Positions 20,033 to 48,877 of a stretch of 64,000 bases of DNA are shown piece by piece. The stretch is from Vicinamibacterales bacterium (GTDB lineage: Bacteria; Acidobacteriota; Vicinamibacteria; Vicinamibacterales; SCN-69-37). Positions within the stretch are counted from its first letter, which is position 1. Each line of letters begins with the position of its first letter. The stretch covers positions 76,923 through 140,922 of the forward strand of contig JAURFE010000003.1 of the NCBI GenBank assembly GCA_030827135.1. The letters are read 5' to 3'. Under the pieces are notes generated by a model. It did no database searches. It saw nothing but the letters and a program-made list of their open reading frames with translations, and was not told the DNA's origin. Made by a program: the position numbers and the translations under genes.

Positions 20033-21502
20033 TCAGCGGCCGCGCAGAACCGCGGCCGCCGCTGCGTGTCCGGATCGCACGGCGCCCTCGATGGTGCCGG
20101 GCAGACCGGTGTCGGTCCAGTCACCAGCCAGGAACAGGCCCGGCACCGGCGTAACCGTGCCCGGTCGCGCCGGGGCACCCGGCGCGACCGAAAACGTCGC
20201 GCGCGGCGCACGCACGACGAGGGCGTGCGTGCGCCGCGCACTGCGGGCGCCCGGGACGCACTGGCCGAGCTCACGCTCGGCCAGTGCGACCAGGGCGTCG
20301 TTGTCCTGTCGCAGCAGGTCGCGAGCGCCGCTCGCGACCATCGCAACCCGGAAATGACGTCGGGTGTCTTTTCCACCGGTCTCCTGGCGAAAAAGACACC
20401 CGACGTCATTTCCAAATGCCCAATGAAAGTGGGTCCCGACGAGCCCGACCTGCCGGTCCGTCAGGACCGGCCGGTCGAACCAGAGGTTCACCGATACGAT
20501 TGGCTCTGACGCTAACTCATTGACCTGACTGATGATAGGGGCCATGCCCTCTGGAGGCCTGTCAGGCCACAGGGCCCCGAGCGCGTGCCAGGGCACAGCG
20601 CAGATGACGGCTGGAGCGGAAAAGACGTCGGGAGGTTTTTTCAGGGTAGTGGCTACCCAAAAACCTCCCGACGTCTTTTCCGCGGACAGGCGCGCGGGCG
20701 TGCGACGCAGCACCCGCCCGCCGCGCGCTTTGACGAAGCGCGCGGCGGGCTCGGCGTACAACGCGTCGAGCGGCACCGTCGGCACCCCAAGCGCCGAGGC
20801 ATCCGCCTCGGCGCTGAACAACTCACCGAGCACCCGCGCGAACGCGCGGGCACCGGCGACCTCCGGCGACTGATTGAGCGCCGCCAGCGCCAACGGGTGC
20901 CACAACCACTCCCGCACCACGGGTCCCTGCCCCATCGACGACAACCACGCCGCCACAGTAAGGTGCTCCGGCACCTCAGCGGCAGCAGCCGCAGCGCCCC
21001 GTTTCCGCGCCTGGCGCAGAAACGGAGCCATCTTCGCCGTGGACCACCGGTCCGCGAGCGGCAACGCACTCCACGCGAGGACGCCCGCCATCAGGTGCAT
21101 CGGCGCCGGCAACGGCGGACACGACAGGGCCGCCCTGCGGCCTGTCGTGTCCGCCATCACCAGTGACAGCTTCGGGTCGAGAGGGGCGAGCGCGTCCGTG
21201 CCAATCGCGCGAAGAAAGGCGTACGTCTCGCGATAACACCCAAACAGCGCATGCTGCCCGTTGTCGATGTGGTCGCCTGTGGTCTTGTCGGTAAATGACG
21301 TGGCCCGGCCACCCAGCCGCGGCGCTTCCTCAAGCACCACGACCTTGAGTCCCGCGCCGGCCAGCCGCACCGCCGCACTCAGCCCTGCGAACCCGGCGCC
21401 GATGACCACCACGTCGGCCGAGATGGCGTCCTCAAGTTCAGGACGCCCTACTTCTTGAGGACGCCCCACGTGTTCAGGGGGCCCTAACGGAGTCGCCACC
21501 AT
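20033..21502 (-). CDS. hpnE: Hydroxysqualene dehydroxylase HpnE with palindromic inserts
   Basis: A 489-residue FAD enzyme, longer than the usual roughly 420-450. Features: dinucleotide motif VVVIGAGFAGLSAA (31-44), GRATSF, DNGQHALFGCY, and the C-terminal FAD motif GLFLAGDWTDTGLPGTIEGAVRSG (in part). It reduces hydroxysqualene to squalene after HpnD and HpnC. Two stretches look inserted: residues about 274-296 (SAEKTSGGFW..KKPPDVFSA) and about 364-385 (GNDVGCLF..KDTRRHF). Each is encoded by a long perfect palindrome. The leader before residue 27 (VGRPQEVGRPELEDA) is encoded by another hairpin repeat. The gene starts inside the end of hpnD (19-nt overlap). Confidence 0.92.
   Translation of the reverse strand: MVATPLGPPEHVGRPQEVGRPELEDAISADVVVIGAGFAGLSAAVRLAGAGLKVVVLEEAPRLGGRATSFTDKTTGDHIDNGQHALFGCYRETYAFLRAIGTDALAPLDPKLSLVMADTTGRRAALSCPPLPAPMHLMAGVLAWSALPLADRWSTAKMAPFLRQARKRGAAAAAAEVPEHLTVAAWLSSMGQGPVVREWLWHPLALAALNQSPEVAGARAFARVLGELFSAEADASALGVPTVPLDALYAEPAARFVKARGGRVLRRTPARLSAEKTSGGFWVATTLKKPPDVFSAPAVICAVPWHALGALWPDRPPEGMAPIISQVNELASEPIVSVNLWFDRPVLTDRQVGLVGTHFHWAFGNDVGCLFRQETGGKDTRRHFRVAMVASGARDLLRQDNDALVALAERELGQCVPGARSARRTHALVVRAPRATFSVAPGAPARPGTVTPVPGLFLAGDWTDTGLPGTIEGAVRSGHAAAAAVLRGR
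20350..20413. repeat. GACGTCGGG palindromic element, copy 1 (in hpnE)
   Basis: Perfect 23-bp arms (20350-20372 and 20391-20413) enclose 18 nt. The arm core is TGACGTCGGGTGTCTTTT. It is read through on the minus strand as GNDVGCLF and KDTRRHF, a different frame from copies 2 and 3. Confidence 0.9.
20616..20683. repeat. GACGTCGGG palindromic element, copy 2 (in hpnE)
   Basis: Perfect 25-bp arms (20616-20640 and 20659-20683) enclose 18 nt, the same spacer length as copy 1. The core is AAAAGACGTCGGGAGGTTTT. On the minus strand it gives SAEKTSGGF and KPPDVFSA. Confidence 0.92.
21425..21451. repeat. Hairpin repeat (CTAC tail) at the hpnE 5' end
   Basis: The stem GGCGTCCT / AGGACGCC is perfect, the loop is CAAGTTC and the tail is CTAC. 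Degenerate right halves follow at about 21457-21484 (GAGGACGCCCCAC, TTCAGGGGGCCCTAA). All are translated in the leader of HpnE. Confidence 0.85.
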
Positions 21503-30553: not shown

Positions 30554-31528
30554 TCAGCCTGCGAAGGTGGTAAGCGTGGCTTCGGCGCCGTCGCCGAGGC
30601 GCACCGTCTGCCCCAGCGTGGCCACGTCACGGTGCACGTACCCGAGCGCAAGGACGCGCCCCGTGGACGGGCTGACCGCCGCGCTCGTGACGACCCCCAC
30701 CGGCTTGCCCTCTGCGAAGAGCTCTGTGCCCGCGACGGGAACGACGGTCACGGCCGGATCAAAGGTCAGTTGCATCAGGTGCTTCACCACCTTGCCGCCG
30801 CCCCGGTGCAGGATTCGGACGATGACCTCCTGGCCGACGTAGCAGCCTTTGGTCTGGCTGATGGCCCGGTCGAGCAGGCCGGCTTCCAGAGGAATGGTGT
30901 CCGTGGTCATATCCACCCCGAAGAGCGGCCGCGCCGCTTCGATGCGCAGCGCGTCGACGGCAGAAAAGACGTCGGGAGGTTTTTCCGGAGTCGCGATTTC
31001 CTCAGGAAAACTGGCCCCGGAAAAACCTCCCGACGTCTTTTCTGCGGGCATCCACACCTCGAAGGTCGGCAGCGCGGTGTCGTCGGCCCGAATCACCCTG
31101 AAGTCCCCGACAGTCAGGTGGCCGAGCACAGGGAGGGCCTCCACGGCCGTCTCGTCGGCACCGGTCGCCGACGCCATGGCCGCGGCCGCGTCCGGTCCGG
31201 CCACAAGCACGGCGCGGGTGGACGCAGAGATGTCGGTCACACGCACGTCCTCCGAAAAGATCAGCTGATCGAAACGCGCCTGCAGGCCGGCGGCGAGGCC
31301 CGCCGGCACCTCGGCGAGAATGCCGGTCCCGGTCCGCAGCAATCGCAGGTCAGCGATCATCCGCCCCTGGGGCGTCAACCAGGCCGCGTACGCCCCCCGG
31401 CCAACCGCAAGGCCCGCGACGTCATTAGTCACGAGCGCGTGGAGGAACGACGCGGCGTCCGGCCCCTCGAATGCGAGGCGCCCGCGGGTGCTGACGTCGG
31501 TCCACATGGTGCGATACTGGAGCGTCAT
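30554..31528 (-). CDS. ygfZ: YgfZ/GcvT-like folate-binding protein with a palindromic insert
   Basis: 324 residues. The YgfZ signature KGCYVGQEVIVR is present, with LVTNDV and AAWLTPQGRMIADL before it. YgfZ helps to make or repair Fe-S enzymes with folate. Residues about 162-190 (AEKTSGGFSG..EKPPDVFSA) are encoded by a long palindrome and sit where relatives have a short link before 'ALRIEAARP'. An alternative start at 31507 (MWTDVSTRG) is equally good. If 31528 is used, the start codon overlaps that of the divergent hydrolase gene. Confidence 0.88.
   Translation of the reverse strand: MTLQYRTMWTDVSTRGRLAFEGPDAASFLHALVTNDVAGLAVGRGAYAAWLTPQGRMIADLRLLRTGTGILAEVPAGLAAGLQARFDQLIFSEDVRVTDISASTRAVLVAGPDAAAAMASATGADETAVEALPVLGHLTVGDFRVIRADDTALPTFEVWMPAEKTSGGFSGASFPEEIATPEKPPDVFSAVDALRIEAARPLFGVDMTTDTIPLEAGLLDRAISQTKGCYVGQEVIVRILHRGGGKVVKHLMQLTFDPAVTVVPVAGTELFAEGKPVGVVTSAAVSPSTGRVLALGYVHRDVATLGQTVRLGDGAEATLTTFAG
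30960..31045. repeat. GACGTCGGG palindromic element, copy 3 (in ygfZ)
   Basis: Perfect 29-bp arms (30960-30988 and 31017-31045) enclose 28 nt. The core is the same AAAAGACGTCGGGAGGTTTT as copy 2, and it is read in the same frame (EKTSGGF / KPPDVFS), although the host gene is unrelated. Confidence 0.93.
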
Positions 31529-43424: not shown

Positions 43425-43508
43425 AGGAACCAGGAACCCGGTTTGCAGTACCGGGAGGGTCGTGCCCCACGCCTGACGTGCAGGCGTGCAGGGGTGGCAA
43501 AAACTGCA

Positions 43509-45635
43509 ATGGCCGAGGTATGGATTCGCAGGCGGCGGTGGACGATTGTTGACGAACGACGCGGCGAAGGACTGACGGCGCTGCGCGTTTCGGGCGGGCG
43601 CGACGAGGCCACCCGGAGCTTCCTGCTTCCCTGTGACACGGCGATCGCAAACCGCGTCAGACGCCCGCGACGGGTCGGAATGGCCCAGGCCCTCGCGCGA
43701 CTCGCTGGACACGTCGTCCGGTCCTCCGCCGCATTTACACCAGCCTCGTTGTGCGAAGCGCGCCTCGACATCCTGCCTTTCCAGCTCGAGCCGACACTCG
43801 CCGTGTGCGCGGGACGCCGACGCGTGCTCATTGCGGATGGCGTCGGCATGGGCAAGACCGTGCAGGCCGGCCTCCTGCTGCACACCATCCTGTCGCGACA
43901 CGCCGATGCCCGCTGCCTTGTGGTGGCGCCCGCAACCCTGCTGTCCCAGTGGGCGGATGAACTGCGCTCTCGATTCGACCTCATCGCCCGGATTGCGGAC
44001 ACCGTGTCGCTCGCAAGACTGCGCGCGTCAGCGCCGTATCTTTCGAATCCCTGGCTTCAACCCGGCATCTGGCTCACGTCGGCGGACTTCCTCAAACAAC
44101 CGCACGTCCGCGATGCGCTGCCGACATCCCCCTGGTCGCTGGTTGTGTGCGACGAGGCCCATCAGTTGTCGGGCGACTCGCAGCGGCACCAGGCCCTGCA
44201 TCATCTCGCCGCAGCCGCGGACGCCGCAGTCCTGCTGACCGCGACGCCTCATGACGGCGATGAAGGGCGCTACCGCCGGTTGCTCGCCCTGGGCGCGCGC
44301 GGCGACACCCTGACACGCTTCCAGCGGTCTCGCCCGACTGACGATGCACGACGACGGACGCGGTGGGTGCGGGTGCCCCTGTTCACCGAGGACCTGCGCG
44401 TGCTCCGGGCGATCGACGCGTTTGAACGCTCGGCGCGGCCGGTCGACGGGCATCCCGGGCTCGGTTTGATCTGCGCGCTGTTCAGGCGCCGCGCGTTGTC
44501 CTCGCCGGCGGCCCTGGCGCGATCCCTGGAGCGCAGACTCATGGTCCTTGAGGGCTGTGACGAGCCGCGCGACGTGTGGCGGCAGCCGGACCTGTTCGAC
44601 GACGACATTCTCGCGGGCGACGAAGCCGAGATTCTCTCGAGCGCGAGTGGCGTACCCGTCGGACGCGAGCGCGCATGGGTGCGTCGCCTCCAGCATCTCG
44701 ACATCAGCGGCCGTCATGGCAGTCGCACCCGCGGGCTCGCCGCGCTGCTGCGCCGATCACAAGACGCCGCAGTGATCTTCACGCACTATCGGGACTCGCT
44801 GCCGGCGATCCTCGCGGCCGTGCCGTCGTGGCGGCGGGCGGCGGTGATGCACGGGGGACTGACGGCTGCGGAACAACAGGACGCGGTGCGGGCGTTCCTT
44901 GATCACCGCGTGGACACGCTGGTGGCCACGGACGTCGCGAGTCAGGGTCTCAACCTCCAGTCAGCGGCGCGATGGGCGATCAGTTTTGATGTTCCGTGGA
45001 CGCCGCTCCGGTTCGAACAGCGCATCGGGCGCGTGGACCGGATCGGCCAGACGCGGCGCGTCCACGCCACGGTGCTCACCACGCGGCATCAGTGCGACCT
45101 TGAGGCTCGCGAACGGTTGAACGCTCGAACGCAGGTGAGCGAGCGGGTGCCGGTTGCGTCGTGCCGCCGATGGATCCGCACGGCGGAGGGGTGTGCGCGC
45201 TGGAGTGATACCCAGCGCCGTCTGACTCGCCACTGGCGGCATCACGGAGAACCTCGTCCGTGTGAAGCCGTTGTCGCGTCGGCGTTCATCGCGCGGTGGC
45301 TGGGCCACGCGGCACCGGGCATCGCCTGTTACGAGGTGCCTCTTGTGCGCTCGACCGGCGAGGTGCTTGAGCGGCGCGTGGTCGCGGTGCCGCTGGAGAC
45401 GCCGGTGACCGCCGTGGCCGCCCGGTGCGCCAGGCGGGCGGCGGCGCTGGCTCGACGCCTCCAGTTGCGCGCAGCGCGGCAGAGTCGCTGGCCGCATCAA
45501 GGTGAAACCGCCACCCAACCGAGTCTGTTTACGCGCAGCGCCCACGACGGCGCGCTCAAACCCAGCGCGCCCGGCGCGCCCTGCGTCGCTGTCGGCACGC
45601 CGCGGCTGGTGGTGCGGTTTGTGAGGCGGCCATGA
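43509..45635 (+). CDS. SNF2-type DNA helicase/translocase of a methyltransferase module
   Basis: 708 residues from ATG 43509. Motif I GVGMGKT (111-117), Q-like FQLEPT before it, motif Ia VVAPATLLSQW, DEAH box (215-218) and LLTATPHDG (motif III). The C-terminal RecA-like domain has ATDVASQGLNLQ and QRIGRVDRIGQ (504-514). This layout matches RapA/DrmD-type SNF2 proteins. No nuclease motif was recognised. The 3' end carries a translated hairpin repeat (GALKPSAP, 681-688). The stop overlaps the methyltransferase start (ATGA), which implies coupled expression. Confidence 0.88.
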   Translation: MAEVWIRRRRWTIVDERRGEGLTALRVSGGRDEATRSFLLPCDTAIANRVRRPRRVGMAQALARLAGHVVRSSAAFTPASLCEARLDILPFQLEPTLAVCAGRRRVLIADGVGMGKTVQAGLLLHTILSRHADARCLVVAPATLLSQWADELRSRFDLIARIADTVSLARLRASAPYLSNPWLQPGIWLTSADFLKQPHVRDALPTSPWSLVVCDEAHQLSGDSQRHQALHHLAAAADAAVLLTATPHDGDEGRYRRLLALGARGDTLTRFQRSRPTDDARRRTRWVRVPLFTEDLRVLRAIDAFERSARPVDGHPGLGLICALFRRRALSSPAALARSLERRLMVLEGCDEPRDVWRQPDLFDDDILAGDEAEILSSASGVPVGRERAWVRRLQHLDISGRHGSRTRGLAALLRRSQDAAVIFTHYRDSLPAILAAVPSWRRAAVMHGGLTAAEQQDAVRAFLDHRVDTLVATDVASQGLNLQSAARWAISFDVPWTPLRFEQRIGRVDRIGQTRRVHATVLTTRHQCDLEARERLNARTQVSERVPVASCRRWIRTAEGCARWSDTQRRLTRHWRHHGEPRPCEAVVASAFIARWLGHAAPGIACYEVPLVRSTGEVLERRVVAVPLETPVTAVAARCARRAAALARRLQLRAARQSRWPHQGETATQPSLFTRSAHDGALKPSAPGAPCVAVGTPRLVVRFVRRP
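45549..45571. repeat. Hairpin repeat, coding, near the helicase C-terminus
   Basis: Stem GGCGCGCT / AGCGCGCC, loop CAAACCC; the tail is CGGC instead of CTAC. Translated as GALKPSAP, the same peptide pattern as in the E2 linker. Confidence 0.85.
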
Positions 45636-48600
45636 GCGGATTGCCGGGTGTTGGCGGCCACCTGTTCCCCATGCAGTTTCTGGCCGACCGCGCGCGGCCG
45701 GCCGATCTGCGCGAGCAGGTGTCGCTGGATGCGTGGTGGACCGGCGTCGCGGGCGCCTGTGGCCCGGCCACAGGCGCCCGCAGCGTCTTCGACCTCGTCG
45801 CGATGCCGCTGTTTGCGCGGCTTGGGTACCGTGCGCGCGCCGTCACTGTCGTGCGCGACGGGCTGACCGCGCGGCTCGACACGCCGCGCGGTCAGCCCGT
45901 GGGCCTGCACGTCCTCGGTTGGCGCGGGTGGGCGGCCCGCCCACCCGCGGTGTGGCGCGACGCCGTAGCCACCGCGCGTGACCACGGTGCCGCGTGGTGC
46001 TGGCTGCTGGCGCCACCGTACCTCTCGCTCGTGCCGGCGGGCGGGCACGCGAGCCGGCGCGCGCTCGAGTTCACATTCCCCGACGCGCTCGCGCCGGGCG
46101 CGTCGGGGATTCTGCTGACACTGGGCCACGCGACGGCGTTTGAGACCGCCGGACGCGCGCCCGGCGGCCCGGCGCGCAGCACGATCAACGCGTGGCTCGA
46201 GAACGCCGCGCACGACCACGCCCGCCTGCACAACGATTTGCAGGCGGGTGTGGTCGAGGCGCTGCACGCGCTCACGCGCGTGCTGCGCCGGCCGACAGCG
46301 CAGACGCCATCGGCATTCGACGAAGCACTCACGCTCGTCTACCGCATTCTCTTCCTGCTGTTCGCCGAATCACGCGCACTGGTGCCGATAGATCACCCGA
46401 TCTATCGCGAGGCGTACACGCTCAGCGGATTGTGTGAGGACGCCCTGCGCGCAGGCACGCTCGGCTTCTGGGACGCTCTGGCCGCCATCACCACGCTGTC
46501 GCGGACGGGCGGCCACGTGAACTCCCTGCATGTGTTTCCATTTAACGGCCACCTCTTCTCAAAACGCGCCGCGCCAACACTGGAGTCGGAACGCCGGCCC
46601 ACCGGCCCCACCCCGCGCAGCCTCGCCCGCGATCACGCGCTCCGCACAACACTGCTGGCGCTCGGCACGCGAGCCGACGCCACAGGCCGGCGGCCCCTGC
46701 ACTACGGCGACTTCGGCGTCGAACAACTCGGCGCCGTCTACGAACGGGTTCTCGACCTCGACCCGTCGACCATGGGCGACGCCCCGCCCAGGCGCCGCAC
46801 CACAAAAACGCACAGCGCAGCACGCAAAGACACCGGCACGTTCTACACGCCCCTCGCCATCGCGGACCTCACCGTTCGACACACGCTCGGTCCCCTCGTT
46901 GACGGTGCTACGTCCGACCACATCCTCAGCCTCCGGATCGTTGATCCATCGATGGGCAGTGGTGCCTTCCTGGTCGCAGCGTTGCGGTACCTCGCGACTG
47001 CATATGAGCACGCGGCTGTCGCGGAAGGCCGGTACGCACCGCTGGAGATCGACGACCACGTACGCGCAGGGTTCAGGCGCACAATCGCCCAGCGCTGTCT
47101 CTACGGGGTGGACGCCAACCCCGTCGCAGTGCAGGTGGCCCGTCTCTCGATGTGGCTGGCCACACTCGCCCACGGCAAGCCGCTCGGTTTCCTCGACCAT
47201 CGTCTTCGCGTCGGCAACAGCCTGCTCGGCACGAGGCCAGACGACGTCAGGCGTCCATTGGGGGCGCGCGACCACGTGTTGCCGCTGTTTGACGATACCG
47301 GCAGTCGCCTGCGCCACGGCATGCAACAGCTGACCACTCCACTGCTGGCGATGACGAACCAGCCTGACGAATCCGTGGACGTGGTGCGCCGGAAGGAGCG
47401 TCAGTGGGCCCATCTCATGTCGAGCGGCGGCCCCGCGGCTCGCTGGCGGCTGGCCATGCACCTGTGGTGCACACGATGGCTCTGGCCTGACTCGTCGCCG
47501 GTGCCGTCAGCTTCGGAGCTGACATCCGCCATCGACTCGATCGTGCGGGAGCGCGACACCATCGGCGGCCCCCACCTGGCCCGATGGTGTGATGCTGCGT
47601 CGGCCGTCGCAACAGAACGCGCACTGTTCCACTGGCCTGTTGAGTTTGCTGACGCGTTCTACGACGCGTCGGGTCATCCACGCCCGGATGCGGGATTTGA
47701 TGCGGTCATCGGCAATCCCCCATGGGAAATGGTGCGCCGCGACACGGGCTCCAGTCGCTCAGGCCAGGGCCGTGACCCCCTCGTGCGGTTCATCCGCGAG
47801 TCCGGACTGTTTCCCCTGTGCCGCACCGGTCACGTCAATCTCTACCAGCCGTTTGTCGACCGCGCGCTCCAGCTTCTGAGTCCGCGTGGACGCGTCGGGC
47901 TCGTCCTCCCCTGGGGATTTGCGGTCGATGACGGCGCCGCGGCGCTGCGGGAGGCCGTCATCAATACCGGCGCCCTCGACACGATCGTCGGCTTCGACAA
48001 CGCGAAGGGCCTGTTTCCCATTCATCGGGGCCTGCGTTTTGTGGTGGCCGTGTGCCGGCCTCCACGCGACAACCCAACGCCGGCAATCACGCGCGCCAGA
48101 TTTGGTGTCACGACCGCTGAGGAGGCGGACGCCATCCCAGAACGGGGCACGCCCGAGGCGAGCGCGGAGCTGCCACTGCAACTCGACCGCGACACACTGG
48201 TTCGACTTGGCGGTCCCACTCGGCGCCTGCTCGACCTGCGCCGGCCCGACGACCTCGATTGGATTGCGCGCATCCGGGTGCACCCGGCGCTCGGGTCCGG
48301 ATGGGGTGTGTCCTTCGGCCGCGAACTGAACGCATCCGACGATCGGCATCTGTTCGCGCCGCGCATCAACAACCGGTCGGGTCTGCTCGTCGCCGAGGGC
48401 AAACACATCGGGCCGTTTACGTTCGACCGGTCCGGCCCGGCGATGGTGATTGACGTCAAGGCTGCCGCCCGGCGGCTCGCGGACTGCCGGTACCGGCGAC
48501 CACGGTTGGCGTATCGGGATGTCTCTGGCGTCGGCAATACCCACGCGTTGGTCGCGACGATCATCCCCGAGGGTGTGGTCACCACCCATACCCTGTTCTG

Positions 48601-48877
48601 TCTGAGAACACCGTTGCCCCTGGACCTGCAGCATTTCCTGTGCGGCCTGTTCAACTCGGCGGTGTTCGACCGCCTCGTCCGCCTCGAAATGGGGAGCCAC
48701 GTGACGACGACGCTGGTGGAGAATCTGCCGGTGCCGCCCTGGACCGGGTCTCCGGTACAACGCGAGATCGCGGCACTGGCTGCCGGACTCCTGGACCACT
48801 GGACCCCTGGACTCCTGGACCGACTGAACGAGATCGTCCTGACCATGTATCAACTTGATGGTCTGCCTGCGTTATAG
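45632..48877 (+). CDS. Large N6-adenine DNA methyltransferase (Eco57I/PglX-like)
   Basis: 1081 residues. SAM motif I IVDPSMGSGAF (436-446), catalytic NPPW (695-698), and DTGTFYTPLAIADLTV before motif I, as in type IIG and PglX-like enzymes. The C-terminal region (about 830-1060) with NRSGLLVAEGKHIGPFTF and LENLPVP-type VENLPVPPW is the target-recognition part. The N-terminal region (about 1-250) has no clear nuclease motif. Together with the helicase it would be a two-gene modification-defence module related to, but lacking the other genes of, DISARM or BREX. The first 640 nt are unusually rich in inverted repeats. Confidence 0.88.
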   Translation: MSGLPGVGGHLFPMQFLADRARPADLREQVSLDAWWTGVAGACGPATGARSVFDLVAMPLFARLGYRARAVTVVRDGLTARLDTPRGQPVGLHVLGWRGWAARPPAVWRDAVATARDHGAAWCWLLAPPYLSLVPAGGHASRRALEFTFPDALAPGASGILLTLGHATAFETAGRAPGGPARSTINAWLENAAHDHARLHNDLQAGVVEALHALTRVLRRPTAQTPSAFDEALTLVYRILFLLFAESRALVPIDHPIYREAYTLSGLCEDALRAGTLGFWDALAAITTLSRTGGHVNSLHVFPFNGHLFSKRAAPTLESERRPTGPTPRSLARDHALRTTLLALGTRADATGRRPLHYGDFGVEQLGAVYERVLDLDPSTMGDAPPRRRTTKTHSAARKDTGTFYTPLAIADLTVRHTLGPLVDGATSDHILSLRIVDPSMGSGAFLVAALRYLATAYEHAAVAEGRYAPLEIDDHVRAGFRRTIAQRCLYGVDANPVAVQVARLSMWLATLAHGKPLGFLDHRLRVGNSLLGTRPDDVRRPLGARDHVLPLFDDTGSRLRHGMQQLTTPLLAMTNQPDESVDVVRRKERQWAHLMSSGGPAARWRLAMHLWCTRWLWPDSSPVPSASELTSAIDSIVRERDTIGGPHLARWCDAASAVATERALFHWPVEFADAFYDASGHPRPDAGFDAVIGNPPWEMVRRDTGSSRSGQGRDPLVRFIRESGLFPLCRTGHVNLYQPFVDRALQLLSPRGRVGLVLPWGFAVDDGAAALREAVINTGALDTIVGFDNAKGLFPIHRGLRFVVAVCRPPRDNPTPAITRARFGVTTAEEADAIPERGTPEASAELPLQLDRDTLVRLGGPTRRLLDLRRPDDLDWIARIRVHPALGSGWGVSFGRELNASDDRHLFAPRINNRSGLLVAEGKHIGPFTFDRSGPAMVIDVKAAARRLADCRYRRPRLAYRDVSGVGNTHALVATIIPEGVVTTHTLFCLRTPLPLDLQHFLCGLFNSAVFDRLVRLEMGSHVTTTLVENLPVPPWTGSPVQREIAALAAGLLDHWTPGLLDRLNEIVLTMYQLDGLPAL
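45749..46256. other. Carpet of coding hairpins in the methyltransferase 5' region
   Basis: Inverted repeats checked: 45749-45781 (16-bp perfect arms, 1-nt centre), 45858-45900 (18-bp perfect arms, 7-nt loop), 45923-45949 (13-bp arms), 46077-46109 (12-bp arms), 46213-46256 (18-bp arms, one G-T). All are inside the reading frame and each is a different sequence. The rest of the gene is not obviously enriched. Confidence 0.85.

Follow-up and report, generated by a model that had tools for sequence, protein, structure and literature searches.

The window analyzed here, a 64 kb stretch from the chromosome of an uncultured acidobacterium, carries a gene pair at 43443-48877 that matches the DrmD and DrmMI profiles, as in DISARM. 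The pair consists of a DrmD-like SNF2 helicase gene (43443..45635, + strand; DrmD profile match) and, directly downstream, an Eco57I/DrmMI-like N6-adenine methyltransferase gene of 1081 codons that encodes 1081 amino acids (45632..48877, + strand; Pfam PF07669, E=2e-18; PADLOC DrmMI, E=2e-79). Neither drmA, drmB, drmC nor any other DISARM-like gene was found among the six neighboring proteins tested, and the pair is not assigned to DISARM here. DrmD-like/DrmMI-like pairs occur in most genomes of the order, with a gene order that is conserved within the genus, and the methyltransferase is present in 111 of the 193 genomes of the class (E<=1e-30), so that this looks like a near-core chromosomal pair of the order, unlike a mobile defense island.

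Within its first ~650 nt, the methyltransferase gene holds five hairpins with arms of 12-18 bp and loops of 1-9 nt, each lying where the initial annotation had placed five inverted repeats (45749-46256). Hairpin 1 (45749..45781) pairs at 16/16 bp around a 1-nt loop and is centered on the conserved motif CGPATG, and hairpin 2 (45858..45900) has perfect arms of 18/18 bp and a loop of 7 nt, exactly as first described. These are followed by hairpin 3 (45923..45949; 13/13 bp, 1-nt loop), hairpin 4 (46077..46109; 12/12 bp, 9-nt loop) and hairpin 5 (46213..46256; 17/18 bp, 8-nt loop), next to which a weaker sixth can be recognized (46258..46289; 13/14 bp, 4-nt loop).

Under a rule that requires an arm score >=11 and a loop <=12 nt, five hairpins were observed at 45632-46300, against a mean of 0.05 in 300 dinucleotide shuffles and of 0.02 in 300 codon shuffles, with a maximum of one in both. 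The same rule returned none, with none expected, in the remaining 2.6 kb of the gene (46301-48877), which bears out by count what had been judged by eye, and none in the DrmD-like gene of the window. An equal density in shuffled controls or in the rest of the gene had been named at the outset as grounds for abandoning the observation, and neither was found; the cluster is a real, non-random feature of the gene, the reading frames that bear such hairpins are open, and the homologous protein runs on through them.

The RNA fold of 45740-46270 (z = -8.2, against +1.2 for an equal-length control from the same gene) speaks for the main rival explanation considered here, according to which the hairpins are selected as functional structures, for instance as mRNA stems with a role in slowing translation or in protecting the transcript, or as DNA cruciform sites. 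On the other hand, a search against Rfam gave three sub-threshold matches and no family at the gathering score, which counts against this explanation and led to the rejection of a known RNA family as a candidate.

The genome contains at least four such clusters, that of the methyltransferase gene included. An hpnE-like gene (20033..21502, - strand; a squalene-associated FAD-dependent desaturase, named from reading the ORF and not from a family search) contains seven hairpins in 20162-21155, against 0.02 in codon shuffles (20162-20190, 20201-20239, 20248-20297, 20317-20339, 20716-20750, 20790-20815 and 21114-21155, by the same rule), and the 13 hairpins of the whole 64 kb are made up of these seven, the five of the methyltransferase and one elsewhere. 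Two further clusters lie in lpxK-like and heptosyltransferase-like genes, both named from their translations, in the 1.06 Mb that were scanned, a third of the genome; some hairpins of these two genes are copies of the dispersed element described below, from which the hairpins analyzed here are separate.

Given that hpnE, lpxK and the heptosyltransferase gene show the same pattern, in the 3' half as well, a 5' control element specific to the methyltransferase is unnecessary. The first of the two options in the initial annotation, an mRNA start region structured for control, is thus weakened by the three unrelated genes, even if the strong conservation of synonymous sites in the arms lends it some weight, and a 5' control role is conceivable but not needed. 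The hairpins sit at no fixed place within the four unrelated genes, which all behave alike, and this argues against selected structures in general.

The overall density of hairpins, 64 per Mb over the 1.06 Mb, is not clearly higher than the 17-133 per Mb found where other genomes of the order were sampled on a small scale. Clustering, taken as three hairpins within 1 kb, was seen in this genus only, the samples of the genus having been partly chosen for known loci. A codon-phase bias was considered and set aside, given that codon position 2 is paired with position 2 in 8 of 12 window hairpins, which is not clearly above the 41% obtained in codon shuffles.

The genome also contains a dispersed palindromic element with the core GAAAAGACGTCGGG(T/A)G..., which has 69 half-site matches in and between genes throughout the genome. 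Its copies in hpnE, lpxK and the heptosyltransferase gene are in frame and translated. In the window, sites of the element are found in hpnE (about 20385-20430 and 20622-20690) and at about 30965-31040. The corresponding insertion sites in these three genes hold another family (ATGAGCTCGGAGGC...) in the sister species G103, which has 79 matches of it against almost none in the window species, and this amounts to a wholesale replacement of sequence at orthologous sites. In a further relative, G101, a palindrome with 55-bp arms and an 11-nt loop lies in or next to the lpxK start (L176:1425-1545), with the dispersed element nested inside it.

The occurrence of this in-frame palindrome in three of the four clustered genes, together with a 9-nt insertion at hairpin 3, could suggest that the target hairpins are remnants of mobile palindromic elements, similar to the Rickettsia palindromic elements or MITEs, inserted in frame. 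This is improbable: the arms of the target hairpins occur nowhere else in the genome, matching only themselves and their own hairpin complements, and are therefore not copies of one element, and the dispersed element was not found in the methyltransferase gene. In addition, the arms of hairpins 1, 2, 4 and 5 align gap-free to nearly all of the relatives in the genus that lack them, which means that these hairpins were made by substitution and not by insertion. Neither many genome copies nor presence and absence as an insertion, as would characterize elements of the Rickettsia or MITE type, was observed, and a mobile origin was rejected; the exception is the left arm of hairpin 3, which overlaps the 9-nt in-frame insertion absent from all of the aligned relatives.

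The arms also differ in how closely they follow the protein family. The right arm of hairpin 5 encodes the family motif DLQxGV and its left arm is divergent (residue scores of +0.03 and -1.73, respectively, as differences from the family), and a residue-score test found a clear asymmetry for hairpins 3 and 5, in each of which one arm is divergent, picking no derived arm for hairpins 1, 2 and 4. For hairpin 2, the comparison of DNA suggests that the left arm is the derived one. Both arms lie near motifs in hairpin 1 and in the INPGA/NKRW hairpin of the heptosyltransferase gene.

Comparison with close homologues, proposed from the start as a means of dating the arms, was made with the sister species G103 and with more distant relatives. 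The genome of G103, the closest available, runs collinearly with the window (84% DNA identity) and retains hairpins 1, 2, 4 and 5, with hairpin 2 and the arms of hairpin 4 identical; hairpin 3 lies beyond this check, given that one G103 contig ends at 45923 and the next starts at 46058. In relatives with ~54% protein identity, hairpins 2, 4 and 5 are absent, and no more than 2-10 of their 12-18 positions are paired (3-8 of 18 for hairpin 2 in every more distant relative), which dates the origin of these three to the ancestor shared by G103 and the window species and counts against selected structures. Hairpin 1 is, by this comparison, either older or recurrent, given that in G101 (~54% identical) it is perfect, with the same midpoint and outer bases that differ at three pairs, both sides changed, and that 11/16 positions are paired in G104.

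In 28 relatives from across the order, nine hairpins of score >=10 were counted in the 750 nt that precede the start codon side of the methyltransferase gene, against 1.4 in shuffled sequence (10 shuffles, with a maximum of three hairpins). They fall where the helicase gene encodes its poorly conserved C-terminal region, are near chance elsewhere, and vary in position from species to species, which is better matched by a process that is tolerated where the protein is under weak constraint than by a fixed element.

The break in the sister assembly at hairpin 3, and the 80 contigs of the genome itself, might raise the suspicion of an assembly or amplification artifact. This can be given hardly any credence, as two separately recorded genomes with 84% identity share the hairpins with compensatory differences, and the open reading frames are maintained. 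Contig breaks were seen at or beside hairpins or palindromic elements in several assemblies, i.e., between G103 contigs C12 and C7 (window 45923/46058) and in the lpxK of G100 and G101. The methyltransferase match of G101 (L060 / L110) is interrupted by stop codons and lacks an open start region; the frame of its N-terminal part appears to be broken near the hairpins.

The evolution of the arms was followed by comparing the window species with G103 at the fourfold-degenerate sites of the four genes. Such sites differ at 9/133 positions in arms, 7/21 in loops, 36/161 in flanks (<=30 nt from the arms) and 379/919 elsewhere (arms vs. elsewhere, P=2e-17), and a test restricted to the window gave 7/85 in arms vs. 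3452/9425. The flanks are themselves conserved (22% vs. 41% of synonymous sites different, P=4e-6), which is simply explained neither by a coupling of the arms, which alone does not predict it, nor by selected structure.

The arms change in concert between relatives, through compensatory double changes in hairpin 5 (C-G to T-A in G103), in the heptosyltransferase gene and in hairpin 1 when compared with G101. The lpxK of G100 and G101 provides an especially clear case, in which a 23-bp stem is perfectly paired around a 1-nt loop in both species and shows exactly two differences in 47 nt, amid DNA that is 87% identical; these two differences pair with each other and change the protein in both arms (R/L in one, A/E in the other). 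The hairpin at this midpoint has 19 bp in the window species and 14 bp in G102. Similarly, an hpnE stem of 13 bp in the window species reaches 19 bp in G103, its extra pairs being accompanied by a GGC/AGA codon difference, and this extension and the G100/G101 pair are the nearest cases to a single event of reverse-complement copying.

Under the explanation by selected structure, both the compensatory changes and the synonymous conservation, which is found in the arms and not in the loops, would reflect selection on pairing, and such direct selection would give equal conservation of the silent sites. The persistence of hairpin 1 at one midpoint across proteins that are about half identical would agree with this, as would the mismatches between species, given that, of 29 broken pairs, 11 are G-U on the mRNA strand and four on the antisense strand. 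This bias (two-sided binomial about 0.12) is not significant, and may be at most a hint toward RNA, while the other 14 broken pairs are neither kind of wobble. The pairing in lpxK was, moreover, kept despite two amino-acid changes. On balance, selection for structure appears unlikely, even as the most serious competitor.

A further explanation is that pieces with hairpins were moved between the two species by homologous recombination, in which case the low divergence would be uninformative on constraint. The conserved flanks and the near-identity over 45845-45923 and about 20162-20339 would be in line with such transfer. Even so, the ~28 nt between hairpins 1 and 2 differ at seven places, with both hairpins nearly identical, the loops diverge normally, and compensatory changes require a local process, all of which makes this explanation very improbable.

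The reading preferred here, with a probability of roughly two in three, is that the hairpins represent coding palindromes that arise and persist through template switching during replication, i.e., the "hotspot for palindrome formation" that was the second option of the initial annotation. That option gains from the lineage-specific arms, the divergence of a single arm in hairpins 3 and 5, the complementary outer bases of the hairpin in a ~54% relative, and the hairpins that relatives carry at the end of the upstream gene, within its last 750 nt. The nascent strand would fold back at a partial palindrome during replication and would briefly copy from its own nearby sequence, replacing the bases of one arm by the reverse complement of its partner, a process known as quasi-palindrome correction or template switching. 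Repeated events may then re-match the arms after later mutations, and an event would survive where the overwritten arm falls in a tolerant segment of the protein.

Given this, the arms would be coupled: a synonymous site in one arm would be bound to a base of the other arm that determines an amino acid, and both would be frozen. Most double changes would be rejected by selection on the protein, and the silent sites would look conserved. Template switching leaves unexplained why these four genes are the ones affected.

SbcCD is a nuclease that cuts DNA hairpins and occurs in E. coli. Neither SbcD nor full-length SbcC was detected in seven genomes of the genus, two of them about 100% complete, and SbcCD was found in most control genomes, with clear, strong matches to SbcD and a long SbcC in G095, G186 and G189; the large subunit of Exonuclease VII is present. 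The apparent lack of SbcCD is possibly why hairpins are tolerated in the genus. SbcD was found in 31 of the 193 genomes of the class, however, and its absence from most of the class implies that the loss could be permissive at best, which led to its rejection as a sufficient cause. It is a tentative proposal, somewhat doubtful as a whole, that in a bacterial lineage lacking SbcCD, parts of ordinary chromosomal genes are converted by foldback copying into palindromes that maintain themselves, promote amino-acid replacement and hold synonymous sites fixed, as a bacterial parallel to the hairworm mitochondria described below, the dispersed palindromic elements possibly being products of the same hairpin-based process.

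The nearest precedent is found in the coding palindromes of the mitochondria of Nematomorpha (hairworms), where hairpin-bearing genes have mainly been described so far, and for which template switching is the proposed cause (Mikhailov et al. 2019, PMC6649704). As in the hairworms, there are numerous perfect, short-spaced inverted repeats in translated genes, with both arms translated, in open frames and above codon shuffles (five and seven vs. 0.02). Most are species-specific, with some midpoints common to several species, and there are concerted double substitutions that alter amino acids yet keep the pairing, and insertions that overlap repeats. The hairworm palindromes have a mean of 43 bp, with arms of up to 142 bp, and are spread over a small mitochondrial genome (PMC6649704), whereas those described here have 11-24 bp and are clustered in a few genes of a bacterial chromosome. 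A limited search of the literature found no bacterial equivalent.

Template switching has been found both to create and to maintain hairpin stems (Monttinen and Loytynoja 2022, PMC8794818), and template switches are known in yeast coding genes (Abraham and Hazkani-Covo 2021, PMC8604942). The likeness to these studies lies in the reverse-complement copying that yields perfect stems and multi-base compensatory changes, and in the homogenization of arms that results in several neighboring amino-acid changes. They dealt with single events against reconstructed ancestors, in RNA genes and yeast strains, whereas the many events placed here close together in one gene are deduced from diverged relatives, the nearest at 84% DNA identity and the next at ~54% protein identity, too far for the reconstruction of single switching events.

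The Rickettsia palindromic elements, in the account of Ogata et al. (2000) given in PMC6649704, are copies of repeat families inserted in frame in bacterial protein genes. As far as that account goes, the hairpins share with them the in-frame position of palindromes within bacterial protein genes, and differ in being unique in sequence and in having mostly arisen without insertion; the dispersed element of this genome is the closer match.

Synonymous conservation and compensatory base pairs are normally strong evidence of a functional RNA. Given their presence in four unrelated protein genes, even at the cost of amino-acid changes, this signature may be a by-product of DNA copying, the hairpins of this uncultured acidobacterium having probably been written by a foldback copying error in DNA synthesis. 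If this is true, it would be a warning for the discovery of RNAs from covariation, and the lineage would offer a natural system in which to test both template switching in the coding DNA of bacteria and the limiting role of SbcCD, in a genus whose several species, at graded distances, make the gain and loss of hairpins traceable.
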